45,983 nucleotides of DNA from Oceanospirillaceae bacterium (GTDB lineage: Bacteria > Pseudomonadota > Gammaproteobacteria > Pseudomonadales > Balneatricaceae): contig JABXIM010000184.1 of the NCBI GenBank assembly GCA_013373085.1, forward strand, positions 1-45,983. The letters run 5' to 3'. This document shows positions 1 through 21,247 of the stretch, piece after piece (the first letter of the stretch is position 1; every line of letters begins with the position of its first letter). The notes beneath the pieces are model-generated. The model was not told the origin of the DNA and did no database searches. It saw only the letters and a list, made by a program, of their open reading frames with translations. Both the position numbers and the translations under genes were made by a program.

Positions 1-28
1 GCGAGTTCGAGTCTCGTTTCCCGCTCCA
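1..28 (+). tRNA. 3' end of tRNA-Gly (GCC), cut by window start
   Basis: The first 28 bases match the 3' end of the E. coli-type tRNA-Gly(GCC): T-stem GCGAG, T-loop TTCGAGT, closing strand CTCGT, acceptor strand TTCCCGC, discriminator T and an encoded CCA at 26-28. The 5' part and the anticodon lie outside the window, so the isotype rests on recalled sequence similarity of this end. The gene is the apparent integration target of the island that follows. Confidence 0.88.
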
Positions 29-29
29 A
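11..29 (+). repeat. attL: 19-bp direct repeat in tRNA-Gly 3' end
   Basis: GTCTCGTTTCCCGCTCCAA covers the end of the T-loop, the acceptor strand and the CCA of tRNA-Gly, plus one base. It is repeated without mismatch at 21229-21247, and identity stops on both sides. Just downstream (41-60) is a small inverted repeat, CAGAC...GTCTG, of a kind that may belong to an integrase arm region. Confidence 0.8.
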
Positions 30-76
30 ATATTCGTCTACAGACGTCCACTGGAGTCTGTAAGTCGTTGAAAGAA

Positions 77-96
77 GGGGCGAAAGCCCCTTTTTT
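77..96 (+). terminator. Rho-independent terminator after tRNA-Gly
   Basis: GGGGC-GAAA-GCCCC followed by six T residues forms a compact GNRA-loop hairpin with a U tract, a textbook intrinsic terminator. It would end the tRNA transcript and shield the integrase remnant from it. Confidence 0.85.
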
Positions 97-254
97 CGTT
101 CCAGCGAAGTCTGCTGAAATCCACCTACGGCCAGCCTTTTTAAGGCCAGAATTGAGGCCAAACTAAAGGGGTGGCGTCAGTACCGGATTGTTGCTGGGGT
201 CGGGCGGGAGCCGTGACGAGCATAGAGCCTAAGTCTCAGCTTAGGAGCTATGAG

Positions 255-379
255 ATGGCACTCTCCGATCTGATCATCCGCCAAGCCAGGACCACTGGAA
301 AAAGCTACAACCTCCGCGATACTGACGGCCTGGGGCTAGTCGTCTCGCCAGCTGGTGGCAAGTCCTGGCACTTCCGCTA
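255..379 (+). pseudogene. Truncated P4-type tyrosine integrase (N-terminus only)
   Basis: About 42 residues remain, starting at an ATG eight bases after an AGGAG Shine-Dalgarno. The peptide (MALSDLIIRQARTTGK..., then [19 protein letters not shown]) matches the N-terminal DUF4102 arm-binding domain of P4/CP4-type integrases, which usually run to about 400 residues. Reading ends where the sequence passes into an IS5-family transposase remnant on the other strand. The catalytic R-H-R-Y domain is absent. The gene's place directly after the tRNA and attL supports its identity as the island integrase. Confidence 0.85.
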
Positions 380-765
380 CTGATTGACCTCGTCGAAGAT
401 CTGGCGTGCCAGGCCATGTTGTTCCAACAGGTGGCGGAACTTCAAAATCGTGGAGTGATCCGGGATGGCCTTGTCCAGCGATAGGCCGGCAAACAGGCGC
501 ATGGAGGCAATCTCGTATAGTGCATGTTCCATGGCCGGATCACTGATGTGTCGGACCACTGAGGTTGTACCACTGTTGCATGCAGTGAATCCGGAGCATG
601 GTCGTCAGCGGATAGGGCCGACGCCCATTACCCGCCTTTGGATAATACGGCTCGATCAGCGCTTCCAACCGCGCCCACGGGATCAGCTTGTCCATCCGGC
701 CGAGGAATTTTTCCTTGGCGCTTGTTGCTGAACTCACTGTCTGCGAATGTGAGCTGCTGATCCAT
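377..765 (-). pseudogene. IS5-family transposase remnant
   Basis: On the minus strand an ATG at 765 opens [17 protein letters not shown], then after a frameshift near 720 continues as [20 protein letters not shown] and [20 protein letters not shown]. After a second shift near 540-560 it continues as [20 protein letters not shown] and [16 protein letters not shown]. These are the N-terminal (DUF772-type) blocks of IS5 transposases. The second shift coincides with a near-duplicated 16-bp stretch (CAGTGGTCCG / CAGTGATCCG). The catalytic DDE half is missing, and the coding sequence stops at the junction with the integrase fragment. No terminal inverted repeats were found. Confidence 0.85.
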
Positions 766-826
766 GGGCGTTTCCTTGATGCAGTTGATGGCCGCAATTG
801 TCCCATGAGCCGGACTTGATCACACC

Positions 827-2470
827 TTAGATGCCCTCCAACGCCAATTGTCGAATTCGTTTCTTGTCGATCTTGCCGACACTGGTCTTGGGTATTGCCT
901 GGACGAAGTCGATATGGCTGGGTATTGCCCACTTATTGATCTTACCTTCTTGAACGAAGCCGGTCAGAAAGGCGCGGATATCGTCGTCCGTCGTTTCGCT
1001 ATTAGCTGGAACGATAAGCGCGCAGGGCCTTTCGCCCCAGTCGGCATCGGGTAAGCCGACAACTGCAACTTCTTGAACATCGGGGTGTTCGCTGATCAGG
1101 GTTTCCAGCTCCAGGGACGAGATCCACTCACCTCCGGTTTTGATGACATCCTTGATACGATCCTTGATTTCTATGAAACCCGTTGGATGGATGCAGGCAA
1201 TATCACCGGTATGGAGCCAGCCATCTTCCCAGAGCGCCTCCTGTTTATCCGGCTCCTTGATGTATCCGCGCGTCAGCCAGGGCGCCCGGACGACGACCTC
1301 GCCAACGTGGTCTCCATCATGAGGCAAGGGAGTACCATCCCCGTCGAGGATTCGAATATCGACCATGTTGACCGGCAGGCCGGTCTGGCGGCGGAACTCC
1401 AGTTGCTGCGCCGGCGCGAGCGCCAACATGTCGTCATTCAGGCTAGTGATGGCCAGCAGCGGGCAGGTTTCCGACATGCCATAGCCGGTATACAGGTGGA
1501 TTCCTTTGGCCTGCGCGCGTTCGGCAAGCCCCTGCGGCAGTGCGCTACCACCAGTAAGGATTTTCCAGTCTTGGAAGTCTGCCGAGAGACTTTCGTCGCA
1601 GCCGAGCATCATTTGCAGTAGCGTGGGTACACAATGTGAAAATGTCACCCCTTCGGTTTGCTGCAGCCTCACAAGACTGTCGGCTTCGTAGCGGCCGGGA
1701 TACACCTGCTTCACACCCAGCATCGTCGCGACATACGGAACGCCCCAAGCATGAACATGAAACATCGGGGTGATGGGCATATACACGTCGTGCGAGCGAA
1801 GTAGGGGAGCGCCTTCATACGCTGCCAGGTTGCCGACGGCGTTCAGTGTGTGCAGCACCAACTGGCGATGTGTGAAATAGACCCCCTTGGGATTTCCGGT
1901 GGTGCCGGTGGTGTAGAAAGTCGTGGCGACCGAGTTTTCGTCGAAGTCGGGAAAATGGTAGTGGCAATCGGCGCCCTCGAGCAACTCTTCGTATTCGCCG
2001 ATGAGTGGAAGTTCGGTTTCCGGACGGTTGTCGTCAGTTAGCAGGATGCACCCGCGGACGCTTTCGAGACTACCTTGAAGGTTCTCGAGCAGCGGCACGA
2101 AATCCCGGTGAGCCAGTACAAGCTGGTCCTCTGCATGGTTCATGGTATAGAGAACCTGCTCGTCCGAAAGGCGAATATTTACGTGATGCAAAACCGCGCC
2201 AATCATCGGCACCGCGAAAAAGCATTCCAGATAGCGATGGCTGTCCCAGTCAAGTACGGCGACGGTGTCCCCGGCGCGAACGCCAGCAGCGGTCAGGACG
2301 TTAGCGAGTCGGCTAACACGTTCGATGAGAGTTGGGTAGTCGTATCTAAACAGGTCGCGATAAACGATCTCATGGCCGTTATGGTGCCGCTGGGCTGACA
2401 TCAGCAGGCGTTTGATCAACAGCGGATATTCGTAGGCGGCGTCAGCTGGCTTAATAATTTTTGTATCCAT
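827..2470 (-). CDS. Acyl-CoA ligase, AlkK/FadD-like (paralogue 1)
   Basis: This 547-residue AMP-forming acyl-CoA synthetase would activate a carboxylic acid with ATP and CoA. Visible adenylate-forming motifs are the P-loop [14 protein letters not shown] near residue 195, [15 protein letters not shown], the hinge [16 protein letters not shown] and the C-terminal SVGKIDKK catalytic-lysine region. It resembles medium/long-chain ligases of the AlkK type; the substrate cannot be read from sequence. I prefer the ATG giving [20 protein letters not shown] over an upstream GTG because the paralogue at 18162 begins the same way (MNTRIIDPSAGAYQYPLLIK). The two are clearly related along their whole length. 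It is monocistronic and lies downstream of a LysR gene on the same strand. Confidence 0.93.
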
Positions 2471-2728
2471 CTGTTCACATCTCTGGTGTTTTCCAACACT
2501 GCCGTAGGACACTGCGCTTCAGTGAATCTGGTCGGGCGGCCAGGACAGTGAAAATATGATCGAAATAAAATGCGACCGCGCGGCTCGTCCAGTCCGGGCA
2601 TAGCCGCGTGGTCGCCAAGCATGGGCTTCCAGTTAATGGCGATCCTTCACCCTGGCGTCGCTTTGGGGTTGAGCATGGCGACAGGTTCAATATAGAGAAG
2701 TGCTATATATTCTTGAAGTTTATTTTAG

Positions 2729-3667
2729 TTATATTTTTGTATTCATAGTGGTGATATTTATCGGCGTTGGCGGAGTTAGGTCGAGTTGCTGTTGTAGCAA
2801 TCGCTCTCGCAGCCAGCGGTTGGCTTGATCCAGATCGGAACTCTTGTGCCAGTAAAGGTGCCACTCCAGTGACGGCATCTCGAAGGGCAACTGGAGAATG
2901 CGGGCATTGTATTGATGCGCCAGGCGTGACGGTACGGTCAGCGCGAGATCCGTTCGTAGAGCGACGAGAGGGGCGACCATATAGTGTTTGACCCTGAGCT
3001 TGATGTCCCGGGCGAGGCCGAGGTTGTTCAGCGCAGCATCGACCTGCCCCATGCCGCCGGGCCGGCTCGAAACCAGGATATGGCCAAGTGCCAGGTAGTC
3101 GTCCAGTGTCAACTCATCACCCACCACGGGATGGTCGCTACGGACCAGACAAACGTACTGGTCTGTCACTAGCGGCTGATGACAGAGCTGGGGATCGCTC
3201 ATCAGTGGTACCTCGATGGCTAGGTCGAGGGTGCCGCTGGCGAGCGCCTTGGGGGCATCCTGGCGACTGTGATAGTGGCTTTCGATACCGAGTCCCGGCG
3301 CGATGCCCTGCAGTTCCTCTTCAAGCGCCGGGAGCAGCAGGGCTTCGGGCAGGTCATTCATGCTGAGGCGGAACACCTTGTCCGAACTTTCGGGACAAAA
3401 GCGATTGCCTTCCTGCACGCTCAGATTGAGCAACTGCAGGGCTTCGCGCACCTGAACCGCGATATTGTCCGCTACCGGGGTCGGTGCCATGCCCTGAGGT
3501 GTGCGGATGAAGAGTTGATCGTCAAAGGTTTTGCGCAGTCTCGACAGTGCATTGCTGACGGCCGGTTGCGTAATCGACAGTATTTCCGCAGTACGAGTCA
3601 GGTTACGGACGCTGTAGATGGTGTCGAACACAACGAAAAGGTTCAGGTCAACTTGGGCGAGACGCAT
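2729..3667 (-). CDS. LysR-family transcriptional regulator (NodD/LeuO-like)
   Basis: The protein of about 312 residues has an N-terminal winged helix-turn-helix (LNLFVVFDTIYSVRNLTRTA, then ITQPAVSNALSRLR) and a C-terminal periplasmic-binding-protein-like effector domain. The start at 3667 (MRLAQVDLNLF) has GGAG nine bases upstream; the longer start at 3682 has none. It is divergent from the histidine phosphatase gene, with a 115-bp gap holding the palindrome TTATTCA-TAATG-TGAATAA. A related palindrome precedes the acyl-CoA dehydrogenase operon at 8826, so I infer it regulates that operon and itself. The effector is unknown; a CoA ester or the free acid of the pathway is plausible. Confidence 0.93.
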   Translation of the reverse strand: MRLAQVDLNLFVVFDTIYSVRNLTRTAEILSITQPAVSNALSRLRKTFDDQLFIRTPQGMAPTPVADNIAVQVREALQLLNLSVQEGNRFCPESSDKVFRLSMNDLPEALLLPALEEELQGIAPGLGIESHYHSRQDAPKALASGTLDLAIEVPLMSDPQLCHQPLVTDQYVCLVRSDHPVVGDELTLDDYLALGHILVSSRPGGMGQVDAALNNLGLARDIKLRVKHYMVAPLVALRTDLALTVPSRLAHQYNARILQLPFEMPSLEWHLYWHKSSDLDQANRWLRERLLQQQLDLTPPTPINITTMNTKI

Positions 3668-3690
3668 TGGGCGACACTCCATAGACGTTA

Positions 3691-3709: not shown

Positions 3710-3782
3710 CTTAGCATTCCAATAATAAAGTTAAAATATGTTGGCCCAGCCTATAACCTCTTGTAAAAAACTGAGGTGATCT

Positions 3783-4457
3783 ATGGCAGAACTGTACGTC
3801 GTTCGACACGGTCAGGCGTCTTTCGGGGCCGAGGACTATGACCAGCTTTCCACCCTCGGGGAGCAGCAAGCTTTGTTGCTTGGACAATACTTTGCCGAGC
3901 GGGATATTCACTTCGATCGTGTCATGACCGGCACGCTGAAACGTCATCATCAGACAGCACAAGCCATCATCGAAGGCGCGGGGTGGGCGGCACCGGTTGC
4001 CGAACACCCGGGATTCGATGAATACGACTTCAAGACGCTAGTCGCGGTAGCCTGCCGCCTTCAGCCGCAACTAAGCGCTTGGTTTGACTCTTGCGACAAG
4101 AAGAGCTTTTACAAGGGCATGCGAGCTGCCTTGTTTCTCTGGCTGGAAGGACGGCTCGACGGTGCAGCACCAGAACGCTGGAATGACTTCAAGGCGCGCG
4201 TTTGCGGTGCTCTGACCGAGGTGCGACAAAGCGGCGCCGGCCGGACGCTGGCGATCAGTTCCGGTGGCGCCATGGGACTCGCGACTCAGCAGATAGTCGG
4301 AGGGCCCGACCACCTGGCCATCGACTTGAACATGCAGCTATTCAATACCGGCGTCTGCCGCTATTTCTACAACCGTGAACGAATACGCCTTGCCACCTTC
4401 AACGGGACACCTCACTTGGAACACCCGGCAGGGACGGATCTGATCACTTACGCCTGA
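3783..4457 (+). CDS. Histidine phosphatase family protein (second His replaced)
   Basis: This 224-residue protein belongs to the phosphoglycerate-mutase/histidine-phosphatase superfamily. The phosphoacceptor motif VVRHGQAS places the catalytic His at residue 9, and TGTLKRHHQTA and PGFDEYDF follow as in the family. The usual second catalytic histidine (SHGG) is replaced by SSGG in LAISSGGAMG near residue 161, a change I also recall in some bacterial relatives. The start has a good GAGGTGAT Shine-Dalgarno. The gene is divergent from the LysR regulator. As it shares the island with a small-molecule phosphotransferase and ACAD pair, it might remove a phosphate from a pathway intermediate; that is inference. 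Confidence 0.88.
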   Translation: MAELYVVRHGQASFGAEDYDQLSTLGEQQALLLGQYFAERDIHFDRVMTGTLKRHHQTAQAIIEGAGWAAPVAEHPGFDEYDFKTLVAVACRLQPQLSAWFDSCDKKSFYKGMRAALFLWLEGRLDGAAPERWNDFKARVCGALTEVRQSGAGRTLAISSGGAMGLATQQIVGGPDHLAIDLNMQLFNTGVCRYFYNRERIRLATFNGTPHLEHPAGTDLITYA

Positions 4458-4484: not shown

Positions 4485-5471
4485 TCAGGTGCCCTGTACC
4501 GTCAATACGACCTTGCCGATATGCTGACCGCCCTCCATCAGGCGATGCGCGTCGGCAGCCTCTGAGAGGGGGAAGGTCGTGAAAATCACCGGCTTGACCG
4601 AACCGGACGCCAGCCAGGGCCAGACCGTCTCGCGCAGCGAGGCCGCGATGCGTCCCTTCGACGCCGTCGACTGGGCCCTGATGGTCGATCCGCTCCACGT
4701 CAGTCGCTTCACCATGAAAGGCATTATGTCGACTTCGGCTTTCGCACCACCCAGCATGGCGATGGACAGCAGCCGTCCATCATTCGCCAGCGCCTGCAGG
4801 TCGCGGCCGATATAGTCGCCGCCCACCATATCCAGAATGACATCGACGCCGTTACCGTCCGTCAGGCGATCTATTTCCTGCACGAAGTCCTGCTCGCGGT
4901 AATTGACGACGTGATCGGCGCCGAACGAAGCGCAGGCGCGTGCCTTGTCTTCGGATCCCACCGTCACGAAAACTTTTGCGCCCATGGCCTTCGCCAGCTG
5001 GATCGCGGTGGTGCCGATACCGCTGCTGCCGCCATGGATCAGCAGCGATTCGCCGGCTTTCAGGTGGCCGCGATCATTGAGGTTGAACCAGACCGTGAAG
5101 AAGGTTTCCGGCAGCGCGGCCGCATCGGTAAGACTCAAACCCTCTGGTACTGGCAGGCAGCACTCCACTGGCGTCTTGACGAGCTCGGCGTAGCCGCCGC
5201 CGGGTACGAGCGCGCAGACTTTGTCGCCGGGGCTCCAGCCGGTGACTCCGGCACCCGTTGCGGCAATCTTGCCGGCTACTTCGAGGCCGAGGATTGGCGA
5301 TGCCCCGTGGGGCGGCGGGTACTTACCCTTGCGCTGTAGCAGGTCGGGGCCGTTGACCCCGGCGGCCGCGACGCGGATAAGCACTTCACCAGGACCCGGT
5401 ACGGGCTCCGGCCGTTCAGCACAAATCAGTACGTCCGGGCCACCTGGCTCCTTCATATCGATATATTTCAT
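4485..5471 (-). CDS. Zinc-free quinone oxidoreductase (QOR/PIG3-type MDR)
   Basis: This 328-residue medium-chain dehydrogenase/reductase has the N-terminal GroES-like fold (PGEVLIRVAAAGVNGPDLLQ, GLEVAGKI) and a Rossmann NADPH site (HGGSSGIGTTAIQLAKAMGA, near 145-165). The structural zinc cysteine cluster is absent, as in quinone oxidoreductases of the PIG3/TP53I3 type. Such enzymes reduce quinones or alpha,beta-unsaturated carbonyls with NADPH. It is the last gene of the minus-strand run from 8673 and starts 20 bp after the SDR stop. An enoyl-CoA or unsaturated-ketone reductase role is possible but cannot be decided from sequence. Confidence 0.92.
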   Translation of the reverse strand: MKYIDMKEPGGPDVLICAERPEPVPGPGEVLIRVAAAGVNGPDLLQRKGKYPPPHGASPILGLEVAGKIAATGAGVTGWSPGDKVCALVPGGGYAELVKTPVECCLPVPEGLSLTDAAALPETFFTVWFNLNDRGHLKAGESLLIHGGSSGIGTTAIQLAKAMGAKVFVTVGSEDKARACASFGADHVVNYREQDFVQEIDRLTDGNGVDVILDMVGGDYIGRDLQALANDGRLLSIAMLGGAKAEVDIMPFMVKRLTWSGSTIRAQSTASKGRIAASLRETVWPWLASGSVKPVIFTTFPLSEAADAHRLMEGGQHIGKVVLTVQGT

Positions 5472-5490
5472 TTTTAGGTTACCTCCGGAT

Positions 5491-6261
5491 TCAAATCAGA
5501 CGGGTGTGGTGGGCGCCATCCACTGGCAGCACCGCTCCGTTGATGAAAGAGCCTGCGTCGCTGGCGAGCAGGATGACCGGCCCAACCAGTTCGTCGAGTT
5601 GGCCCAGGCGTCGCGCGGGCATAGACCGAATGTAGGCCTGCCCCTTGTCGCTGGCGAAGAAATCCGCGTTCATTTCGGTTTCGAACCAGCCCGGGGCAAT
5701 GGCGTTGACGCGAATGCCATAGCGCATCAGGTCATTGGCGAGCGAACGGGTCAGCTGCACGACCGCGCCCTTGGAGGCGGCGTAAGCGCTGTAGCCCGGA
5801 TGGGTACCGAGGCCGAGTATCGAGGCGATATTGACGATGGAGCCGGGCTGTCCGGCTTCGACCAGGCGGCGTGCCGCTTCCTGGGACACGTGCCAGACCC
5901 CCTTGAGGTTGGTATCCAGCACAGCGTCCAGCGAGGCTTCGCCCATTTCCAGGAAGGGGGCGGGCGTGGCGATGCCGGCATTGTTGATGACGATATCGCA
6001 CAGGCCGACCTTGTCTGCCGCAGTGTCGAAGGCACTGTGAACACTGACAGGTGACGTTACGTCCAGCGCGACCGCCATCGCGGTGCCCCCGGAATCGTTG
6101 ATGGTACGGACCAGTTCTTCGAGTCGATCGACGCGGCGGGCCGCTACTACGATGGTGGCTCCGGCCTCCGCCAACCCTTGGGCGAGATGATAGCCGATGC
6201 CGCTCGAGGCGCCGGTGACGAGTGCAACTTTGCCTTCCAGGGAGAAGCGTTCTTTTGCCAT
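5491..6261 (-). CDS. SDR-family oxidoreductase (3-ketoacyl reductase-like)
   Basis: This 256-residue classical short-chain dehydrogenase has the cofactor motif TGASSGIG (16-23), the NNAG motif, the catalytic Ser in NIASILG and YAASK as the Tyr-Lys pair. AARRVDR after the second strand suggests NADP preference. In organisms with ACAD10/11-like genes, such SDRs often oxidise the 3-hydroxyacyl-CoA product; that role is inferred here. The start ATG has a weak upstream signal (GGAGAATACAAC). A 159-bp gap separates it from the phosphotransferase gene upstream, so it may have its own promoter or be an internal operon member. Confidence 0.93.
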   Translation of the reverse strand: MAKERFSLEGKVALVTGASSGIGYHLAQGLAEAGATIVVAARRVDRLEELVRTINDSGGTAMAVALDVTSPVSVHSAFDTAADKVGLCDIVINNAGIATPAPFLEMGEASLDAVLDTNLKGVWHVSQEAARRLVEAGQPGSIVNIASILGLGTHPGYSAYAASKGAVVQLTRSLANDLMRYGIRVNAIAPGWFETEMNADFFASDKGQAYIRSMPARRLGQLDELVGPVILLASDAGSFINGAVLPVDGAHHTRLI

Positions 6262-6420: not shown

Positions 6421-7449
6421 TCAGTTTCCACGTTCAATGAGGTCCATCGCCATTTCCGACAGCGGGCGGGCAAGTTCGCCGACTGCGAGCGCCCGAGTAC
6501 TTGATGCATTGCCTTCCAGGGCGCGCTTCTTCACGCCCTGGACGATGGCGGCGAGGCGGAAAAAACTGAACGCCAGGTAGAAATTCCAGTACTCGATACC
6601 ATCCAGGCCCATACGGGCGCAGTAGTCCTCGACGTATGCCGCTTCGGTCGGCAGCCCCAGGGCCCGCCGATCAAGACCGCCCAGGCCGTGCATCGTGCCC
6701 TCATGTGGCATGCGCCACTGCATACACTGGTACGCCAGGTCGGCGAATGGGTGCCCCAGCGTCGACAGCTCCCAGTCGACGACCGCAAGGATGCGCGGTT
6801 CAGTCGGGTGGAACAGGAAATTGTCCAGGCGATAGTCACCGTGGACCAGGCTGATCCGGCCGTCGTCTTCGGGCAGCTGCTGAGGCAGCCAGGCGATCAA
6901 CTGGTTCATGGCCTCGATGGATTCGGTTTCGCTGGCCAGGTACTGGCGGCTCCAGCGCGCGATCTGGCGTTCGAAATAGTTGCCGGCGCGGCCGTAATCG
7001 CCGAGGCCCACCGCGTCGACGTCGATGCAGTGCATCGCCGCCAGCACCCGGTTCATTTCGTCGTAGTAGTCGCGACGCCGGTCACGCTCGATATCGGGCA
7101 GCGCCGGGTCCCAGAACACGCGGCCTTCGACGTAGGACATCAGGTAGAAATCGCTGCCGATGATGCTGGCGTCCTCGCAGAGGTGGTAGGCCTCGGCGAC
7201 CGGCACGCCGGTTTTCCCGAGTGCCCGCATCACGCGGAATTCGCGGTCGATGGCATGGGCGGATTTCAGCAGTTCTCCGGCCGGTTTGCGACGCAGCACG
7301 TAGTCGCCGGAGCGGGTGCGCAGCCTATACGTCGGGTTGGACTGGCCGCCGGCGAACTTTTCCAGCGCTATCGGCCCCTGGAATCCCGGCAGCGCCGCTT
7401 CGAGGTAGGCCGTAAGACTACCGGTATCGATGTCCACAGTGTTCGTCAT
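6421..7449 (-). CDS. APH-fold phosphotransferase, ACAD10/LvaA-like
   Basis: The 342-residue protein has the aminoglycoside-phosphotransferase/choline-kinase fold. The Brenner motif LVHGDYRLDNFLFH carries the catalytic Asp and metal-binding Asn, and VVDWELSTLGHPFADLA carries the DFG-equivalent Asp. It resembles the kinase half of mammalian ACAD10/11 and LvaA of the levulinate pathway, which phosphorylate 4-hydroxyacyl-CoA rather than antibiotics. The start has GAGGAG upstream, made from the end of the preceding ACAD gene, only 12 bp away, so the two are translationally linked. Pairing with an ACAD is the main evidence for a catabolic role. Confidence 0.93.
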   Translation of the reverse strand: MTNTVDIDTGSLTAYLEAALPGFQGPIALEKFAGGQSNPTYRLRTRSGDYVLRRKPAGELLKSAHAIDREFRVMRALGKTGVPVAEAYHLCEDASIIGSDFYLMSYVEGRVFWDPALPDIERDRRRDYYDEMNRVLAAMHCIDVDAVGLGDYGRAGNYFERQIARWSRQYLASETESIEAMNQLIAWLPQQLPEDDGRISLVHGDYRLDNFLFHPTEPRILAVVDWELSTLGHPFADLAYQCMQWRMPHEGTMHGLGGLDRRALGLPTEAAYVEDYCARMGLDGIEYWNFYLAFSFFRLAAIVQGVKKRALEGNASSTRALAVGELARPLSEMAMDLIERGN

Positions 7450-8673: not shown

Positions 8674-8825
8674 GGTGCAGCTCCTCATTATTATCGGGTT
8701 GATCGGTGGCACCTGATTTTCGGGATGGCGGCGCTGCGGTCCGCGTTGGCTCGGCCACTCCCGATTTGCAAAGAGCCTAGGCCATTGCTCAATATTTTTG
8801 AAATTTATTATTGTTATAGTTTTAT

Positions 8826-10678: not shown

Positions 10679-10714
10679 ACGGCACCGAACTACAACAATA
10701 ACCTGGGGTTTTTC

Positions 10715-11938: not shown

Positions 11939-11971
11939 CTGACCCGGCTAAAAAACGGAGGGCACGCTGTC

Positions 11972-12859: not shown

Positions 12860-12869
12860 GGAGGCATCC

Positions 12870-13823
12870 ATGAACAAACGAACCCTGTATTGTGCTCTGG
12901 TAGTACTGGCACTGCTGGCGCCCCTTGCGGTCTATCCGGTATTCCTGATGAAGGTGCTCTGTTTCGGGCTGTTCGCCTGTGCCTTCAACCTGTTGCTGGG
13001 ATTCGGCGGTCTGCTGTCCTTCGGGCATGCGGCTTTTCTGGGCACGGGAGCTTATGTCACGGGTTACGCCATGTCGACCTGGGGCCTGACGCCAGAAATC
13101 GGCCTGCTGGTCGGAACCCTGGCTTCCGCGGCGCTGGGACTGGTTTACGGGGCCCTGGCCGTCCGACGGGAGGGGATCTATTTTGCCATGGTGACGCTCG
13201 CGCTGGCGCAGCTGATGTTTTTCGTTTATCTGCAGGCGCCCTTTACCGGCGGCGAGGATGGCCTGCAGGGGATTCCGCGCGGGCAGTTGCTGGGGGTCGT
13301 CGACCTGCAGAGCAATATGGCGATGTACTACCTGGTGCTGGCGATCTTCAGTGGCGGATTCCTGCTCATTCATCGCACGATTCACTCGCCGTTCGGCCAA
13401 GTGCTGAAAGCCATCCGGGATAACGAGGCGCGCGCCATTTCCCTGGGGTACCAGGTCGATCGCTACAAGCTGCTGGTGTTCGTGATCTCCGCCGCGCTGG
13501 CCGGGCTCGCCGGCGCGACCAAGACGCTGGTGTTTCAGCTCGCCTCCCTGAACGACGTGCACTGGCTGATGTCGGGCGAGGTCGTGCTGATGACGCTGGT
13601 CGGGGGAATGGGGACCTTCCTGGGACCGCTGGTGGGTGCGGGCGTGCTGGTCAGTGTCGAGCATGCGCTGTCGTCGGGCACGCTCGGCGCTTATGTACAC
13701 GTCGCGATGGGAATGATCTTCGTCCTTTGCGTATTGCTGTTCCGGCGCGGCATCGTTGGCGAGTTTCCGCACCTCGTCAGCAAGTTGGCGAAGGGTATAC
13801 GACGCCGCTTACCCATGCGTTGA
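12870..13823 (+). CDS. Liv-type ABC transporter permease (LivM-like)
   Basis: The 317-residue second permease shows LivM blocks: LLLGFGGLLSFGHAAFLGTG near residue 45, REGIYFAMVTLALAQLMFF near 100, the coupling segment GQVLKAIRDNEARAISLGY near 180 and VGGMGTFLGPLVGAGVL near 255. The start has a strong GAGGAGG. It is the last transporter gene; a stem-loop at 13854-13879 follows, before the next SDR gene. Confidence 0.94.
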   Translation: MNKRTLYCALVVLALLAPLAVYPVFLMKVLCFGLFACAFNLLLGFGGLLSFGHAAFLGTGAYVTGYAMSTWGLTPEIGLLVGTLASAALGLVYGALAVRREGIYFAMVTLALAQLMFFVYLQAPFTGGEDGLQGIPRGQLLGVVDLQSNMAMYYLVLAIFSGGFLLIHRTIHSPFGQVLKAIRDNEARAISLGYQVDRYKLLVFVISAALAGLAGATKTLVFQLASLNDVHWLMSGEVVLMTLVGGMGTFLGPLVGAGVLVSVEHALSSGTLGAYVHVAMGMIFVLCVLLFRRGIVGEFPHLVSKLAKGIRRRLPMR

Positions 13824-13942: not shown

Positions 13943-14716
13943 ATGAGCAAGCGAGTATTGATTACCGGAGCCGCGTCCGGATTTGGCCGGGGTGTCGCAT
14001 TCGGACTGGCCCGACAGGGCCATGAGGTGATCGCGGGGTGCCAGATCTGGCCCCAGGTATGGGAGATGCGTCACGCGGCAGAATCCGAAGGCATTCAGAT
14101 GACCGTGATCAAGCTGGACGTGCTGAACGAAATCGATCGAGCGCACGCGTTCGCGCTGGATATCGATGTGCTGTTCAACAACGCAGGCATTATGGAGTCG
14201 GGCCCCGTCGTCGAGTTACCGATGGATGTGGTGCGCTCGGTGTTCGAGACCAACGTCTTCGCCGCCTTGATGATGGCACAGGGTTTTGCTCGCAAGATGG
14301 TCAAGCAGGGCAGGGGCAAAATCGTCTGGACGTCTTCGGTTGCGGGATTGGTGAAGGTCCCCTGGGATGGTGCCTATGCTGCCTCGAAACATGCTGTTGA
14401 AGGATTCTGCTCAGCCATGCGTGACGAGCTTGAACCCTACGGTGTACAGGTGGCGACGGTCAACCCGGGAGCATACCGTACTGGCTTCAACGACACCGGC
14501 ATGGAAGCGATGGATCAGTGGTGGGATCAGGGCGAGCGGGTGGTCGCACACTGGCCAAAACGTCCACTGGACAAGCAGCACGACCCTCAGGAGATGATTG
14601 ATGCGATGATCGAGGTCATCGCGTCGGATCATCACGCCTACCGTACCGTCAAGCCCAAAGCGGCCGAGGACATGGTAAAACAGGAGCAGTCCGAAATCTG
14701 GAAACGGCAGGTCTGA
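13943..14716 (+). CDS. SDR-family oxidoreductase
   Basis: This 257-residue short-chain dehydrogenase has the motifs TGAASGFG (8-15), LFNNAGIMESG, the catalytic Ser in VWTSSVAGL and YAASKHAVEGF. The sequence after the second strand (IAGCQIWPQVWEM) lacks a clear cofactor determinant. The C-terminal region (GMEAMDQWWDQGERVV) is typical of a subgroup annotated only as SDR, so no substrate is assigned. It follows the Liv operon by 119 bp on the same strand with a hairpin in between, so cotranscription is uncertain. It converges with the minus-strand LysR gene downstream. Confidence 0.92.
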   Translation: MSKRVLITGAASGFGRGVAFGLARQGHEVIAGCQIWPQVWEMRHAAESEGIQMTVIKLDVLNEIDRAHAFALDIDVLFNNAGIMESGPVVELPMDVVRSVFETNVFAALMMAQGFARKMVKQGRGKIVWTSSVAGLVKVPWDGAYAASKHAVEGFCSAMRDELEPYGVQVATVNPGAYRTGFNDTGMEAMDQWWDQGERVVAHWPKRPLDKQHDPQEMIDAMIEVIASDHHAYRTVKPKAAEDMVKQEQSEIWKRQV

Positions 14717-14749: not shown

Positions 14750-15721
14750 TTACAGCGAGGAGCCAGTAAGGAAACAGGCGTCTTCGTCGCCTCTGAGGAC
14801 ATAACCTTCGTACAGGTTCGAGAAGTCCATTTCGCCGAAGCTATCGCCCAGAAAGTCGAGCAGATAGCGCACCGAGGGCAGCAACCCCTGACGGCTGGCG
14901 AATACCGCGTGTACCACGGCTCCCTGGGGTTGCCAGTCGGGCAATACTCGTACCAGGCTACCCTGCATTAAGTCCTTGAACACGACCAGTAGGGGCAACT
15001 GAGCAATGCCTCCTCCGTCCAAAGTTAACCGGCGTACGGTGATCAGATCGTCGGTCACGAGGCGAGGTTCGTGGCTGACCTTCGCATTGGCTCCGTCCGG
15101 TCCCTGCAATGTCCACTCGTAATGGCCGCGTACGGTCCCCCCTTCGAGACTGGGAAAACGCTGCAGGTCCTCGGGCGAAGAGGGGGCACCCTCGGTGTCG
15201 ATCAGCCAAGGGCTGGCGACGAGCTCCTGAGGGCTCTGCGACAGCGTCTTCATCACCAGGTTGCTGTCCTGCAGCGGTGGTACCCCGACGCGAAGCGCGA
15301 TATCGAACCCCTCCCGCAACACGTCGACCTCGCGATTGGTGCTTTCGACCTGCACTTTCACCCTGGGGTAGCGGATCATGAACCGGGACAGCATGCCTGC
15401 CACGACAAAGTTCAGTAGTGCGGTGGGACAACTGATGCGCACGATACCGCCGGGCTCGGCTTGGCTGCGTTCGATCAAAGCCTCGGCGGCATCGGCCGCA
15501 GTCAACATTTCCTTGCACAATTGATGATATTCGGCGCCGACATCGGTCACGGAAAACTGCCTTGCGTTGCGGTGCAACAGCCGGACCTGCAGGCGCTCCT
15601 CGAGCCGGGAAACGGCTCTGCTAAGCTTGGACTTGGGAATGTCGAGGGCACGGCTAGCGGCACTGTAGCCACTGTACTCCACGACTTGCACGAAATAGTA
15701 GAGTTCATTCAAATCGTACAT
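14750..15721 (-). CDS. LysR-family transcriptional regulator
   Basis: This 323-residue LysR protein has an N-terminal HTH (NELYYFVQVVEYSGYSAASR, IPKSKLSRAVSRLEERL) and a substrate-binding-like effector domain. The SKLSRAVSRLEERL helix is typical of the large CrgA/YhaJ-type subgroup. It is divergent from the PfpI-like gene; the 158-bp shared promoter contains the palindrome AAACGT-A-ACGTTT. Divergent LysR genes usually control their neighbour, so I infer it senses a redox or electrophile signal for the PfpI/monooxygenase operon. Confidence 0.92.
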   Translation of the reverse strand: MYDLNELYYFVQVVEYSGYSAASRALDIPKSKLSRAVSRLEERLQVRLLHRNARQFSVTDVGAEYHQLCKEMLTAADAAEALIERSQAEPGGIVRISCPTALLNFVVAGMLSRFMIRYPRVKVQVESTNREVDVLREGFDIALRVGVPPLQDSNLVMKTLSQSPQELVASPWLIDTEGAPSSPEDLQRFPSLEGGTVRGHYEWTLQGPDGANAKVSHEPRLVTDDLITVRRLTLDGGGIAQLPLLVVFKDLMQGSLVRVLPDWQPQGAVVHAVFASRQGLLPSVRYLLDFLGDSFGEMDFSNLYEGYVLRGDEDACFLTGSSL

Positions 15722-15879: not shown

Positions 15880-16560
15880 ATGAGCAAGAAAATATTGGTG
15901 GTTCTGACCAGCTTTGAAAAGTATCCGACCCTCGCGCGCGCAACCGGGCTGTGGCTTGGTGAGGCAGTCCACTTCGTCAAGAAAGTTGAAGAGGCCGGCT
16001 ATCAGGTCGATTTCGTCAGTCCCAAGGGCGGCTACACCCCGATCGATCCGCACAGCCTGGCAATGGCCGAGGAAGTGGACTGGGAGTTTTACCGTAACAA
16101 GGACTTCATGAACCGATTGGGTTCGACGCTCAAGCCCAGTGAAGTGAATCCGGATGACTACGTAGCCATCTACTACGCCGGCGGGCACGGTGTGGTCTGG
16201 GACTTCCCCGACAACGTGGAGCTGCAGGCGCTGAGCCGCAGCATCTACGAGAACGGCGGCATCGTTTCGTCGGTCTGTCATGGCGCCGTTGGACTGCTGA
16301 ACATCAAGCTGTCGGACGGGTCGCTTCTGATCAAGGATAAAAAGGTCACGGGCTTCTCTAACGAAGAGGAAAAACTGGCCGAACTCGACCAGTACGTGCC
16401 GTACCTGACCGAAACCGAAATGGTGAAGCGGGGCGCGATCTACCAGAAGGCCGATGAGCCCTGGGCCGCCTTTGCGATTGCCGATGATCGCGTCATCACC
16501 GGACAGAACCCGGCTTCCGGCGGCCCGGTCGCTGATCTGGTGCTGAAAGAGTTGGCCTGA
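15880..16560 (+). CDS. DJ-1/PfpI superfamily protein (Hsp31-like)
   Basis: This 226-residue class I glutamine-amidotransferase-like protein has the nucleophile-elbow motif SSVCHGAVGL with the catalytic Cys near residue 130, and YYAGGHGVVWDFPDN, which supplies the oxyanion and His/Asp region, as in Hsp31/HchA and fungal homologues. Members act as glyoxalase III, deglycase or stress-protection proteins; the exact activity is not readable here. The start has an AGAGGTGAAGT signal. It is first in a run with two small monooxygenase-like genes and divergent from a LysR regulator. Confidence 0.92.
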   Translation: MSKKILVVLTSFEKYPTLARATGLWLGEAVHFVKKVEEAGYQVDFVSPKGGYTPIDPHSLAMAEEVDWEFYRNKDFMNRLGSTLKPSEVNPDDYVAIYYAGGHGVVWDFPDNVELQALSRSIYENGGIVSSVCHGAVGLLNIKLSDGSLLIKDKKVTGFSNEEEKLAELDQYVPYLTETEMVKRGAIYQKADEPWAAFAIADDRVITGQNPASGGPVADLVLKELA

Positions 16561-16570
16561 CGCCTCGAAC

Positions 16571-16602
16571 GCCAACATACGCAAGGTCCGCTGCGTGTTG
16601 GC
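16571..16602 (+). other. Strong hairpin between PfpI and YdhR-like genes
   Basis: GCCAACATACGCA and TGCGTGTTGGC pair over 12 bases on the 5' arm with one bulged T and an 8-nt loop. No U tract follows. It may attenuate transcription or protect the upstream mRNA end. Confidence 0.55.
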
Positions 16603-16640
16603 AGCGGGCCGCCCGACACTCCAGGAAAGGCCGAATTCAG

Positions 16641-16952
16641 ATGATCACCACAATCGTGCAATTCAATCTACCGCAACCGCTATCCCGGGAAGCCGCCCGA
16701 GAAGTGTTCTCCGAGTCGGCCCCGGCGTACCAGGACAAGCCGGGGCTGATTCGCAAGTACTACTTGTTCTCCGAGGATGGCAGACGGGCCGGCGGCGTCT
16801 ATCTCTGGTTGTCTCGTAAGGCAGCCGAACAGCAGTACGACGCAAACTGGCACGCAATGATAAAGGCGAGGTACGGCACCGAGCCCACTGTTCTGTATTT
16901 CGATACACCCGTCATCGTCGACAACCCCGCCCGGCAGATACCCGTTGACTGA
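16641..16952 (+). CDS. YdhR-like monooxygenase family protein
   Basis: This 103-residue small protein resembles the YdhR/putative monooxygenase family of ferredoxin-like alpha+beta dimers. The segments VQFNLPQPLSREAA, YQDKPGLIRKYYLFSEDGR, GGVYLWLSRKAAEQQY and YGTEPTVLYFDTPVIV match the pattern of an N-terminal strand, a substrate-pocket helix and a conserved GGVYLW strand. The ATG follows AGGAAAG. It lies between the PfpI-like gene and an ABM-domain gene and probably belongs to their operon. The function of this family is not established. Confidence 0.88.
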   Translation: MITTIVQFNLPQPLSREAAREVFSESAPAYQDKPGLIRKYYLFSEDGRRAGGVYLWLSRKAAEQQYDANWHAMIKARYGTEPTVLYFDTPVIVDNPARQIPVD

Positions 16953-17006
16953 TTCGGCTCAGCGAGTATGCGAACAGTGCCTGTAAAACTATCGGAGGTC
17001 GCGTCG

Positions 17007-17303
17007 ATGCACCAGCCAGTTCATGTGACAGCCCGTTTCAAAGTGAAGGCCGGTTGCATCGGCGAAATGCTGGAACTGCTGGCAACTCTCGCCGCCAACA
17101 CACGGCAGGAGCCGGGATGCCGGCATTACCATTATTACCAGTCGATCGACGATTCGACCGTCTTTACATCGTTCGAGATCTGGGTCGACGCCGAAAGCGA
17201 AGCTGCCCACTGGCAGACGCAACTTCTCAAGGAAGTGGTGTCGAAAGTTCCCGCGCTTACGGATGGCCCAGTCGAAACGACCCGCTATCGCTGTGTCGTT
17301 TGA
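17007..17303 (+). CDS. ABM-domain quinol/antibiotic monooxygenase-like protein
   Basis: About 98 residues form a single antibiotic-biosynthesis-monooxygenase (ABM) domain: VHVTARFKVKAGCIGEMLEL, ANTRQEPGCRHYHYYQSIDD, FTSFEIWVDAESEAAHWQT. The EPGC...Y and E-W-x-(D/S)..H pattern matches YgiN-type quinol monooxygenases. I chose the ATG at 17007 because GGAGG sits eight bases before it; an in-frame ATG at 16968 lacks a signal and lengthens the protein beyond the family norm. It ends the small operon; the IS1182 remnant follows within 30 bp. Confidence 0.88.
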   Translation: MHQPVHVTARFKVKAGCIGEMLELLATLAANTRQEPGCRHYHYYQSIDDSTVFTSFEIWVDAESEAAHWQTQLLKEVVSKVPALTDGPVETTRYRCVV

Positions 17304-17329
17304 GCCAGGTGTAATGGCGCGATGTCAGC

Positions 17330-17891
17330 GGGCGTAATCCGTCTTGTCGGTGGCCTTAGCGACGTCCGGCGAGTCCGTTTTCGTATCGGCCAGGAAGTGC
17401 TCCGGACGATACAGCCCCTCGGGGAGCGATTGCAACTTGTCCACCGTCGGCTCGACCTGCTGCTTGTCGTTGCACGCCTGTGTTACATCGACCGCCAGGA
17501 TCTAGGCGCTCGCTTGATTTTGGCCTTGGTACCCACGATAGCAGCCAGGCGGTCTTCGCGCCGTTGGAACTCTTCGGGCTGGTTGACCCCGCCGGGCACG
17601 CTGCTCTGGTTGGCGGCTTCCGTCAGTTAGAGTTGCTGCTGGACTTCGGCCTTGAGCTGGGCCGCGATCTTACGGCTTGAGAAGGTGCCGGTCGCTTGAT
17701 CGTAGATCAGTAACCACAGCTGGTGCCGGGTGGTAAGCCGCGTCTCGCATAGACACGCTCCAGCCCCGACAGGGCCAGCCCATTGACCACATCCACGATG
17801 TAGCGCGCGAGTGCGGCTCGGGTACCTGGTCCAGTATAGAGGAAGGCAGCAGGGAATCGGTGTCGCGGTCAATCGGTCGAAAGCGGCTCAT
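17330..17891 (-). pseudogene. IS1182-family transposase remnant, internally deleted
   Basis: On the minus strand the fragment opens MSRFRPIDRDTDSLLPSS, the usual start of IS1182 transposases. It continues in other frames with LARYIVDVVNGLALSGLERV, LLIYDQATGTFSSRKI, AAQLKAEVQQQL, EEFQRREDRLAAI and QACNDKQQVEPTVDKLQS. Blocks that are far apart in an intact transposase of about 450-500 residues are joined directly, there are stops and frameshifts, and most of the catalytic domain is missing. It is a scrambled relic, now between the ABM gene and the second acyl-CoA ligase. Confidence 0.85.
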
Positions 17892-18058: not shown

Positions 18059-18077
18059 TGATCAGATCTGCTGATCA
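18059..18077. promoter_or_regulatory. Candidate operator upstream of ligase-thiolase operon
   Basis: TGATCAGATCTGCTGATCA is a perfect inverted repeat with 7-bp arms and a 5-bp spacer, 84 bp upstream of the ligase ATG. Its geometry equals that of the palindrome at 3691 although the arm sequence differs, so a different regulator is likely. Confidence 0.5.
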
Positions 18078-18161
18078 ATTCACAATGCTTCATGTTTCGC
18101 ATATCAGATTAATCGACAGATCCGCGATTTCGTGACCTGCAACGTCGACAGGAACACCTGC

Positions 18162-19808
18162 ATGAATACAAGAATAATCGATCCATCCGCCGGCGCTTAT
18201 CAATATCCGCTGCTGATCAAGAACCTGCTGCTTTCCGGCCGTCGCTACGGCACCGATCACGAAATCGTCTGCGGCGATCGGCGCTACGGCTACCAGAGCC
18301 TCAACGAGCGTATCGCCCGTCTGGCCAATGTACTGGCCGATGCCGGCATTGGCGCCGGCGATACGGTGGCAGTGCTGGACTGGGACAGCCACCGCTATCT
18401 GGAAGCCTATTTCGCGGTGCCGATGATCGGTGCGGTGCTGCACCATGTGAACATCCGCCTCAGTGCCGATCAGATCGGTTACACCATGCAGCATGCGGAG
18501 GACAAGCTGGTGCTGGTGCACGACGATTTCCTGCCGATCGTCGAAGCGCTCGCGGATCAGCTGCCCAGCGTCGAAGGCTATCTCCAGCTCAGCGACGAGG
18601 CCCAGGCGGCCGGTACGTCGCTGAACACCTTCGGCGAGTATGAGGCGCTGCTGGATGCGGCTGCGAGTGACTACGATTTCCCCGATTTCGACGAAAATTC
18701 GGTCGCCACCACCTTCTACACCACTGGCACCACTGGCAATCCGAAGGGGGTCTTCTTCAGTCACCGCCAGTTGGTGCTGCATACGCTGAACATGGCCACG
18801 ACCCTGGCGGCCTACGAGGGGGTGCCGCTGCTGCGCTCGGAAGACGTCTACATGCCGATGACGCCGATGTTCCACGTTCATGCCTGGGGTGTGCCCTATG
18901 TCGCGACGATGCTCGGCGTCAAGCAGGTCTACCCGGGCCGCTACGAGCCGAACCGGCTGGTGCGGCTGTACCGGGAGGAGGGGGTGACCTTCTCCCATGG
19001 CGTCCCGACAGTGCTGCAGATGGTGCTCAATTGCGACGAAGCCAGGGACACCGATCTCGGCCGCTGGAAGCTGCTGACCGGCGGGGCGGCGCCGACCGAA
19101 GGCCTGGTGCGCCAGATGGCCGAGCGCGGCATCCGTTTCTATACCGGCTACGGCATGTCCGAAACCTGTCCGCTGCTGAGCCTGACCCATCTGACGCCCG
19201 AGCAGGCGGCGCTGCCGACGACCGAGCAGATCGGCCTGCGCATGCGTACCGGCCTGCCGATCGCGCTGGTGGATCTGCGCGTGGTCGACGAAGAGGGACG
19301 GGATGTAGCGGCCGATGACGTCAGTGTGGGCGAAGTCGTGGTGCGCACGCCCTGGCTCACCCAGGGATATTACAAGGAGCCGGAGAAGGGCGCCGAGCTC
19401 TGGCACGGTGGCTGGCTGCGTACCGGCGACGTCGCCTCGGTCAATTCGCAGGGCGTGCTACAGATCCGCGATCGGATCAAGGACGTGATCAAGACCGGTG
19501 GTGAGTGGATTTCGTCGCTGCTGCTTGAAAGTCTGATCAGCCAGCACCCGGCAGTGGCCAATGTGGCCGTCGTCGGTGTCCCGGACGAGCGCTGGGACGA
19601 GCGCCCGCTGGCACTGGTGGTGCCGGCAGGGGGCCGGGACGTCGACAGCGAGGCGCTGAAGCGGCACCTGATGCAGTACGTCGAGAGCGGCGAGATCAAC
19701 AAATGGGCGATCCCGGAACAGATCAGGGTCGTTGAGTCGATCCCGGTGACCAGCGTCGGCAAGATCAACAAGAAGCTGATCCGCGAGCAACTCGCGGCAC
19801 GGCATTGA
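18162..19808 (+). CDS. Acyl-CoA ligase, AlkK/FadD-like (paralogue 2)
   Basis: This 548-residue AMP-forming acyl-CoA synthetase is paralogous to the ligase at 827-2470 and shares all motifs: [65 protein letters not shown] and SVGKINKK. The ATG at 18162 has AGGAA upstream; an in-frame GTG 30 bp earlier is less likely. It is followed after 22 bp by a thiolase on the same strand, so activation and thiolytic cleavage are coupled in one operon. Divergence in the middle region suggests the two ligases differ in substrate or regulation. Confidence 0.94.
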   Translation: MNTRIIDPSAGAYQYPLLIKNLLLSGRRYGTDHEIVCGDRRYGYQSLNERIARLANVLADAGIGAGDTVAVLDWDSHRYLEAYFAVPMIGAVLHHVNIRLSADQIGYTMQHAEDKLVLVHDDFLPIVEALADQLPSVEGYLQLSDEAQAAGTSLNTFGEYEALLDAAASDYDFPDFDENSVATTFYTTGTTGNPKGVFFSHRQLVLHTLNMATTLAAYEGVPLLRSEDVYMPMTPMFHVHAWGVPYVATMLGVKQVYPGRYEPNRLVRLYREEGVTFSHGVPTVLQMVLNCDEARDTDLGRWKLLTGGAAPTEGLVRQMAERGIRFYTGYGMSETCPLLSLTHLTPEQAALPTTEQIGLRMRTGLPIALVDLRVVDEEGRDVAADDVSVGEVVVRTPWLTQGYYKEPEKGAELWHGGWLRTGDVASVNSQGVLQIRDRIKDVIKTGGEWISSLLLESLISQHPAVANVAVVGVPDERWDERPLALVVPAGGRDVDSEALKRHLMQYVESGEINKWAIPEQIRVVESIPVTSVGKINKKLIREQLAARH

Positions 19809-19830
19809 ATGGATAGAACAGGAGGCAACC

Positions 19831-21018
19831 ATGGTACAGAAAAATGAAGTGGTGGTAGTCAGCGCTGCCCGTACGGCTATCGGCGATTTCGGGGGCAGCC
19901 TGAAGGACCAGGCGCCGAGCGAGTTGGCGGGTCGGCTGGTGGCCGAGGTGGTACGTAGTGCCGGCGTCGATCCGAAGTCGGTCGGTCAGAGCGTGTTCGG
20001 CAATGTCATTCATTCGGAGCCGGCCGATATGTATATGGGACGTGTTGCGGCGCTCAGGGGCGGGCTGTCCGAAGCGACTGCGTCGCTGACCGTCAACCGC
20101 CTGTGTGGCAGCGGCCTGCAGGCGGTCCTCACGGCGGCGCAGCAGATCGAGCTGGGTAACTGCGATGTGGCAGTCGCCGGTGGCGCCGAGTCGATGAGCC
20201 GGGCCCCGTACTGGCTGCAGACCGCGCGTTTCGGCCAGCGCATGGGCAACGGAGAAACCATCGATGCGATGACCGCGGCGCTGCACTGCCCGATGGAAAA
20301 GATCCATATGGGGGTGACCGCGGAAAACCTGGCGGAAAAATACGCGATCAGTCGCGAGGATCAGGACCGGCTGGCGGTCGAGAGCCACCTTCGTGCCCAG
20401 CGCGCGATCGAGGAGGGGCGTTTTCGCGAACAGATCCTGCCCATCGAGGTGAAGAGTCGCACCGGTATACAGTCGTTCGAGACCGATGAGCATGTACGCT
20501 TCGACGTTCAGTTGGACGATATGGCCAAGCTGAAGCCGGTGTTCAAACGGGACGGCAGCGTCACCGCGGGCAATGCATCCGGCCTCAACGATGCCGCCGC
20601 GGCGGTGCTGCTGATGGATCGCGAAAAAGCGGCCGCCGAAGGCAGAGAAGTCCTGGGCCGGCTGGTGGACTACAGTGTGGTCGGTGTCGAGCCGAAATAC
20701 ATGGGCATCGGCCCGGTGCCGGCAATCCGTGAGATCCTGGCGCGCCAGAATCTCGGCGTGGGCGATATCGACGTCTACGAGGTCAATGAAGCTTTCGCCG
20801 CCCAGGCGCTGGCCGTGGCCCGCGAGCTGGAACTGCCGCTCGATCGACTGAACCCGAACGGCAGCGGCATCGGCCTCGGCCATCCGATCGGCGCGACCGG
20901 CGCCATCGTGACCGTGAAGGCGCTGTACGAGCTCAAGCGCATCCAGGGCCGCTATGCAATGGTCAGCCTCTGCATTGGCGGCGGCCAGGGCATTGCAGCC
21001 CTGTTCGAGCGACCCTGA
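19831..21018 (+). CDS. Thiolase, acetyl-CoA acyltransferase family
   Basis: This 395-residue thiolase would cleave 3-ketoacyl-CoA with CoA, or condense acyl-CoAs. Catalytic residues are visible: Cys92 in NRLCGSGLQA, the NEAFAAQ asparagine, His in GHPIGATGA and the second Cys in LCIGGGQG. Length and motifs fit the degradative/biosynthetic BktB-PhaA-FadA group. A clear AGGAGG precedes the ATG. It is the last gene of the island, about 210 bp before attR. It would supply the final step of the acid oxidation proposed for the island. Confidence 0.94.
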   Translation: MVQKNEVVVVSAARTAIGDFGGSLKDQAPSELAGRLVAEVVRSAGVDPKSVGQSVFGNVIHSEPADMYMGRVAALRGGLSEATASLTVNRLCGSGLQAVLTAAQQIELGNCDVAVAGGAESMSRAPYWLQTARFGQRMGNGETIDAMTAALHCPMEKIHMGVTAENLAEKYAISREDQDRLAVESHLRAQRAIEEGRFREQILPIEVKSRTGIQSFETDEHVRFDVQLDDMAKLKPVFKRDGSVTAGNASGLNDAAAAVLLMDREKAAAEGREVLGRLVDYSVVGVEPKYMGIGPVPAIREILARQNLGVGDIDVYEVNEAFAAQALAVARELELPLDRLNPNGSGIGLGHPIGATGAIVTVKALYELKRIQGRYAMVSLCIGGGQGIAALFERP

Positions 21019-21228
21019 TTCCCTGCACCCGACAGGCATTCACGTCCCCTAACCGGGACTGCGCCCACCTCCACCCAAGGGGGCCTTGCAATCTTGTGTG
21101 CCAAGGATGGCACTATTTTCGCTGAATGGTGCTATGAGGCTGAGGCGGATCCTGCCATATTCTGGCCACCTTACGGTGCTGAAGCAAAAAGAAGTCATTG
21201 GGATTAACGATTTAGAGCTCTAGTGCTT

Positions 21229-21247
21229 GTCTCGTTTCCCGCTCCAA
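21229..21247 (+). repeat. attR: second copy of 19-bp tRNA-Gly repeat
   Basis: GTCTCGTTTCCCGCTCCAA is identical to bases 11-29. The sequence before it does not form a tRNA, so this is a displaced 3' tRNA fragment as expected at the far end of an integrated element. Confidence 0.8.

Follow-up and report, generated by a model that had tools for sequence, protein, structure and literature searches.

The window analyzed here, 45,983 bases long, is a whole contig (JABXIM010000184.1; C80 in our numbering) of the 249-contig draft genome of an Oceanospirillaceae bacterium (GCA_013373085.1, hereafter G000), and its first 21 kb hold an island of catabolic genes that begins at the 3' end of a tRNA-Gly(GCC) gene (Table 1). 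The sequence GTCTCGTTTCCCGCTCCAA stands at positions 11–29 and recurs identically at 21229–21247, with adjoining bases that differ at both sides. No other exact repeat of at least 19 bases exists in the window, where about 0.007 pairs are expected from base composition. The first 18 bases of the repeat are the last 18 of the tRNA-Gly(GCC) genes of G000, and positions 1–28 equal the last 28 nt of the 76-nt copies of this gene elsewhere in the genome (two on contig C175, one on C97). Both the exact 19-bp repeat and its origin as a tRNA-Gly(GCC) 3' end, as proposed in an earlier note on this DNA, are borne out by these identities. ARAGORN called no tRNA in the window because the contig start cuts the gene, and an Rfam scan of the window returned nothing at gathering score. 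The attL/attR sequence printed for ICEclc (PMC9960961, PMC10732049) is the identical 18-mer, letter for letter, and a passage in PMC6563109 gives the tRNA-Gly with GCC anticodon as the target of this integrative and conjugative element (ICE). Taking att as the 18 bp printed for ICEclc, the 19th base is shared flank, and the crossovers would enclose 21,218 bp. The 18-mer occurs eight times in G000, in every case exactly, though one mismatch was allowed, and 43 times in the seven genomes of the genus; the reversed control gave 0 in G000, and the control for the genus likewise 0.

Table 1. Features of the island and its borders in the window.
Feature	Position	Strand	Evidence or remarks
3' end of tRNA-Gly(GCC), gene cut by contig start	1..28	+	identity with other tRNA-Gly copies
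attL, 18 bp (base 29 also shared with right copy)	11..28	+	exact repeat; printed ICEclc attL/attR sequence
Left end of element family, hairpin and T-run (~70–97) just after tRNA	29..254	+	85–91% to G002–G006 left ends
First 42 codons of P4-like integrase, then stop (truncated)	255..380	+	intact 610-aa homologs in G002, G003, G004
Transposase relic (DUF772), frames broken	381..826	-	71–77% to C61 and C85 of same genome
Acyl-CoA synthetase (ligA)	827..2512	-	AMP-binding; NF004837 subfamily
LysR regulator (lysR1)	2729..3682	-	
Histidine phosphatase-family protein	3783..4457	+	
PIG3-type NAD(P)H quinone/enoyl reductase	4485..5471	-	TIGR02824
Short-chain dehydrogenase (sdrA)	5491..6261	-	
APH-fold kinase, ortholog of ACAD11 kinase domain	6421..7449	-	1.2e-85 to 8v3v; HGD..LDN motif aligned
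ACAD10/11-LvaC type acyl-CoA dehydrogenase	7462..8712	-	7.3e-134 to 8v3u; GRLGPGR-HHCMR and catalytic Asp conserved
Branched-chain-amino-acid-type ABC importer: two ATPases, binding protein, two permeases	9135..13823	+	
Short-chain dehydrogenase (sdrB)	13943..14716	+	NF006776 over cut-off
LysR regulator (lysR2)	14750..15721	-	
DJ-1/PfpI, YdhR-like, ABM-domain and one unassigned small protein	15880..17630	+	
Acyl-CoA synthetase (ligB) and BktB-like thiolase (thl)	18132..21018	+	82% to pair in G002 ICE, 348948–351848
Right inner arm ATTAACGATTTAGAGCTCTAGTG plus 3 bases	21203..21228	+	recurs in 4 of 7 genus genomes
attR, 18 bp	21229..21246	+	exact repeat
Displaced 3' flank of tRNA-Gly (~110-bp unit with 18-mer)	21247..21337	+	79–83% to three C175 units

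Between the att sites, family scans of the open reading frames (ORFs) recovered the acyl-CoA catabolic set as the earlier note had described it, and the integrase fragment and insertion sequence remnant that it listed are likewise there. Beside attL, 42 of ~610 integrase codons remain, and the fragment ends at the minus-strand transposase relic, whose match to DUF772 is weak, its E of 7.5e-5 lying right on the Pfam cut-off. Scanning of 20 ORFs of the island revealed no recognizable relaxase, coupling protein, type IV secretion system (T4SS) or other conjugation gene. TIGR03744 gave 0 matches in the assembled genome of G000, where no intact integrase was found either.

Both ends of the island recur in the genus. 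Window positions 11–379 are matched at 85–91% in G002, G003, G004, G005 and G006, each copy immediately following the 3' end of a tRNA-Gly (G004 has a different first base in the 18-mer, and in G003 the contig begins within the tRNA), and the hairpin, read by eye, is conserved in the left-end alignment. This left end is present in six of the seven genus genomes, G000 included, and in none of the other 109 genomes of the family that were searched. The right arm ATTAACGATTTAGAGCTCTARTG was found once each in 4 of the 7 genus genomes (in G002 with two mismatches), always three bases before the 18-mer; G001 yielded neither left end nor right arm. That the repeat arose by chance in an ordinary chromosome, as the small difference in G+C content (59.5% vs 61.8%) might allow, is scarcely credible: the expected number of such repeats is far below one, the 18-mer is a published att site, and the recurrence of both ends at tRNA-Gly in relatives contradicts such an origin. 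A native-chromosome reading was rejected on the distribution of left end and right arm and on the family-wide DNA matches.

The insert in G002 consists of two elements in tandem, with a left end at 170589, a right arm at 371213 and an att at 371239, through 371256; the second left end begins on that same att (371239–371256). The first element, ~200 kb long, has both ends, an intact 610-aa integrase and, at 314 kb, a TIGR03744 (VirB4-like) ATPase. Nine of its 10 further ORFs scanned fall in named families, seven of which are ICE or conjugation families (MobH/TIGR03760 relaxase, TIGR03752, TIGR03749, TIGR03746, TraD, PFGI-1 ParB TIGR03764 and PFL_4669), the remaining two being topB and STY4528. 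By gene content, this element is an ICE of the ICEclc/PFGI-1 class, and the left and right ends of the window copy have the same order and orientation as its own. The integrase is intact in G002, G003 and G004, lies in two frames in G005 and carries three stops in G006; the remaining genomes give a match of 136 residues on C67 (G000) and, in G001, no more than a distant relative at 33%. The nearest integrases on plasmid records, over 99–100% of the length, are those of Aeromonas caviae (64%), P. veronii (61%) and P. putida NZ_AP015030 (59.8%), the last of which we take to be pKF715A/ICEbph-sal. The ICEclc integrase is itself P4-like.

The second G002 element (G002:C1 371257–392165) is ~21 kb long, lacks an integrase and lies directly behind the ~200-kb ICE, its left end ceasing ~12 bases into the integrase gene. 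Nine of its ORFs were scanned, giving two acyl-CoA dehydrogenases and members of the nitronate monooxygenase, porin, DctM and NMT1 families, with three left without a hit. Judged from its position, the place of this element directly behind the ICE is as expected from accretion or cis-mobilization. A second remnant of the element family also occurs in the own genome (G000:C67 13861–14011 and 44303–44812); there the left end follows a repeat unit, not the tRNA body, and stands ~30 kb from the integrase fragment, with an ABC importer 70–73% like that of the window between them.

Filled and empty sites were compared within the genus. By alignment, G001, a sister species, has no insert at two tRNA-Gly arrays that are filled in other genus genomes. 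At array 1, its tRNA-Gly continues straight into GATCACTCCGTAC, the sequence that follows right arm and att in G003, and GATCATTCCGTAC, a variant of it, follows right arm and att in G004. Homology between G001 and G003 starts exactly at the att base (G001 local 16738 = G003:C121:1880), with 313 of 411 columns identical in a global alignment of 400 bases; between G001 and G004, the BLAST alignment ends ~340 bp short of att, and a global alignment of 400 bases gives a weak match, with 253 of 477 columns identical. At array 2, homology between G001 and G002 runs up to G002:170607 and resumes at 392165, leaving ~221.6 kb inserted in G002. As for the window locus, positions 21247–21337 align to units after tRNA-Gly in C175 with 75/95, 74/95 and 74/94 columns identical, and these C175 units are, from the alignments, the best available picture of its empty site; a search of 57 genomes matched positions 21338–21582 nowhere but in the own genome (query window 20600–23600). 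The direct junction of base 29 to base 21248 that the earlier note predicted was not found in relatives; what stands is the analogous contrast between empty and filled sites for sister elements (G001 versus G002, G003 and G004) and the resemblance of 21247–21337 to the sequence lying 3' of other tRNA-Gly genes in G000. The finding named by that note as speaking against an inserted unit, namely the full 21 kb collinear without the repeat in all close relatives, was not seen among the matches listed from 116 family genomes: the longest match to window 1000–20990 outside the own genome spans 4,650 bp, and therefore no relative was seen with the island collinear.

Tandem units of ~110 bp after tRNA-Gly were observed in G000:C175 60–828, G005:C3, G006:C3, G009:C21 and G024:C14. 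Most begin with the 18-bp 3' end of the tRNA, and in C175 three unit starts follow the tRNA-Gly genes, one of them altered. These units look like extra attachment sites.

A cis-mobilizable element (CIME), as a passage in PMC5704250 defines it, has lost its integration and transfer genes and has kept attL and attR. The window copy retains both att sites, has lost integration and transfer genes and shares both ends with the complete G002 element, a related ICE. Because both ends are kept, the integrase is reduced to 42 codons and no conjugation gene was recognized, we regard the window copy as a decayed, CIME-like derivative in structure. A full ICE or an autonomous integrative and mobilizable element (IME) was rejected on the same two features of integrase and conjugation genes. 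A still mobile small IME, moved by an integrase acting in trans, would agree with the intact att sites and with the frequency of ICE relatives in the genus; we nevertheless deem it very unlikely, given that its own integrase has 42 codons, that the sole other match in the assembled own genome is the 136-residue piece on C67, that the genome shows no VirB4 of the TIGR03744 class and that no relaxase was recognized among the island ORFs scanned.

For the CIME-like island, comparison supports the following course: (i) an ICEclc-type element entered the 3' end of tRNA-Gly(GCC) through integrase recombination at the 18-bp site; (ii) most of the integrase was later lost, next to the insertion sequence relic, with both ends and the catabolic cargo being kept; and (iii) the island, which probably cannot move by genes of its own, could be carried out and transferred in cis by a related ICE that inserts at the same att. 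A matching ICE with an integrase-less element in tandem does exist in G002. Of the transferred unit suggested by the earlier note, the inserted tRNA-Gly element bounded by attL and attR holds; this element does not stand alone, however, but derives by decay from a family of ICEclc-type ICEs present in the genus.

ACAD11-type enzyme pairs let mammals burn 4-hydroxy fatty acids. The kinase and acyl-CoA dehydrogenase (ACAD) of the island match the two halves of mouse ACAD11 (8v3u, 8v3v) as split orthologs. Key residues named for ACAD11 in a passage of PMC12440821 are Arg, His, Arg and the catalytic Asp in the ACAD part, and Asp and Asn in the kinase. The window proteins have every one of them: Arg, His and Arg in GRLGPGR-HHCMR, the ACAD Asp, and the kinase Asp and Asn. 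The two genes are orthologs with the substrate residues of an ACAD10/11-LvaAC type pair, and bacterial orthologs can stand in for mammalian ACAD11-type domains, as reported in PMC11342911. Because these orthologs keep the reported key residues, 4-hydroxy acids appear to be the likeliest substrates of the cargo, which puts a proposed substrate class in place of the acid that the earlier note had left unnamed. By orthology, an organic acid would be imported by the ABC importer and activated to its CoA ester by the acyl-CoA synthetases. If a 4-hydroxyl is present, orthology and conserved residues predict that the APH-fold kinase phosphorylates it and that the ACAD11/LvaC-type enzyme then removes the phosphate to give a 2-enoyl-CoA, which would pass through β-oxidation with host enzymes and then thiolysis. 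No hydratase gene was recognized in the island, and therefore the host would supply that step. It is clearly less probable that the acid served by the cargo lacks a 4-hydroxyl and that the kinase/ACAD pair is incidental or acts on another substrate. The two ligases, two regulators and separate transcription units, which suggest at least two gene blocks, would fit such a cargo, as would the lack of a recognized levulinate-type partner in the island; set against it are the conservation of residues reported as needed for 4-phosphoacyl-CoA handling and the recurrent pairing of the two genes: among the best 80 of 589 named loci, 40 have a kinase relative no more than 2.5 kb from the ACAD. In 19 of these 80, a relative of the histidine phosphatase is found within the same distance, and in 12 a relative of lysR1 stands no more than 4.5 kb away.

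The cargo looks composite in its sequence relationships. At least 67 of the 116 family genomes have a DNA match to it at E ≤ 1e-100; within it, window 2471–9127 had no such match among those listed. ACAD protein relatives at E ≤ 1e-100 are found in 4 of the 116 family genomes, the own included, and the nearest named ACADs among the best 80 of 589 named loci are those of Sneathiella metagenome-assembled genomes (80% and 76%). Relatives of the window ACAD are present on 123 plasmid records; mobile carriage of such genes is therefore not new in itself. The delimitation to the base claimed by the earlier note applies to the ends of the island, not to its composite-looking cargo. Two unrelated ICE-family remnants could instead flank ordinary chromosomal genes, host DNA having been captured by tandem insertions and deletions. 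We judge this unlikely. The importer and ligB-thl types do occur across the family, no ICE core gene was recognized inside the island, and the tandem clc-like islands of Bordetella petrii take up core genome according to a passage in PMC2717098; yet the left and right ends are oriented as in the G002 ICE, the 2471–9127 segment is without a listed family match, and the closest relative of ligB-thl among the matches listed is the pair inside that ICE (82%).

Based on these observations, we propose a probable explanation: the island descends from an ICEclc-type ICE that has decayed to a CIME-like form, and orthology and conserved residues suggest that its catabolic cargo handles 4-hydroxy acids. 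Several points weigh against this explanation. The first 48 bases of tRNA-Gly are absent from the window. An exact empty site for the window locus was not found in the 57 genomes searched with 20600–23600, because the right-hand neighborhood is not tRNA-linked in relatives: beyond 21582, the right flank, with a universal stress protein (Usp) and TctA, is not beside tRNA-Gly in G001–G006. The usual upstream neighbors of Usp-TctA sit on other contigs (C120 and C11; G000 and G005 examined), so that the neighborhood is rearranged. For the second G002 element, a search allowing up to 4 edits detected no right att, and its right border therefore rests on the G001 comparison. The ABC importer (9.1–13.8 kb) and ligB-thl (18.1–21.0 kb) have DNA relatives across the family, and parts of the cargo may thus be of local origin. 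Of the other 19 island genes, only lysR1 was found in two Sneathiella ACAD loci; since these loci are without the rest of the island block, no donor block is claimed. Finally, no lvaB-like partner was identified for the kinase/ACAD pair.

The element is of an ordinary kind, well resolved: a decayed catabolic ICEclc-type derivative with a nameable likely substrate class. It resembles the family of ICEclc (Pseudomonas knackmussii B13) in that full relatives in the genus carry a relaxase of the PFGI-1 class, T4SS, ParB and topB, and differs in that the window copy is 21 kb long, has a 42-codon integrase and no recognized conjugation gene, and carries an acyl-CoA set where ICEclc has chlorocatechol genes. 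CIMEs such as the ICESt1-related elements of Streptococcus thermophilus have likewise lost integration and transfer genes and kept attL and attR (PMC5704250); unlike these, the window copy has an ICEclc-type end pair and a gammaproteobacterial relative group, and its mobilization is predicted only. Bordetella petrii GI1–GI3, described in a section of PMC2717098 as clc-like tandem islands at tRNA-Gly that share repeats, recall the G002 tandem; those excise, whereas here one copy is without a working integrase. The enzyme pair resembles ACAD10/ACAD11 and the LvaA/LvaC 4-hydroxy acid pathway in its kinase and ACAD-type enzyme, HCMR motif, Arg and the catalytic Asp of each part. It is encoded by two separate genes, as in bacteria, unlike ACAD10/ACAD11, and compared with the LvaA/LvaC pathway it has no recognized lvaB and lies in an island with an ABC importer. 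Among the papers listed, none on CIMEs names ICEclc, and none pairs an ACAD11 or LvaC term with an island or ICE term.

The analysis links a catabolic island that lacked annotation with the best-studied family of catabolic ICEs, and names ICE relatives predicted to be able to move it as well as a concrete substrate class for its enzymes. A bolder reading, which we hold only tentatively and consider doubtful as a whole, is that of a CIME of the ICEclc kind with a complete importer-ligase-kinase-ACAD-thiolase route for 4-hydroxy acids, belonging to a genus-wide set of ~21-kb integrase-less elements with acyl-CoA catabolic genes that accrete behind large ICEs at tRNA-Gly, with the repeat units of the tRNA 3' end found downstream of tRNA-Gly as extra landing sites. 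If accretion is correct, decayed catabolic islands of the genus would stay transferable cargo for any incoming ICE.

Outside the island, the universal stress protein and TctA/TctC locus (window 21806–25873) varies in position between species of the genus. A second catabolic cluster at 39124–44837 comprises a SnoaL-like protein, the alpha and beta subunits of a Rieske ring-hydroxylating dioxygenase, a reductase and DctP/DctQ transport genes. A short stretch at 34750–34917 is repeated at 78% in C67 (56897–57082 and 60962–61067).

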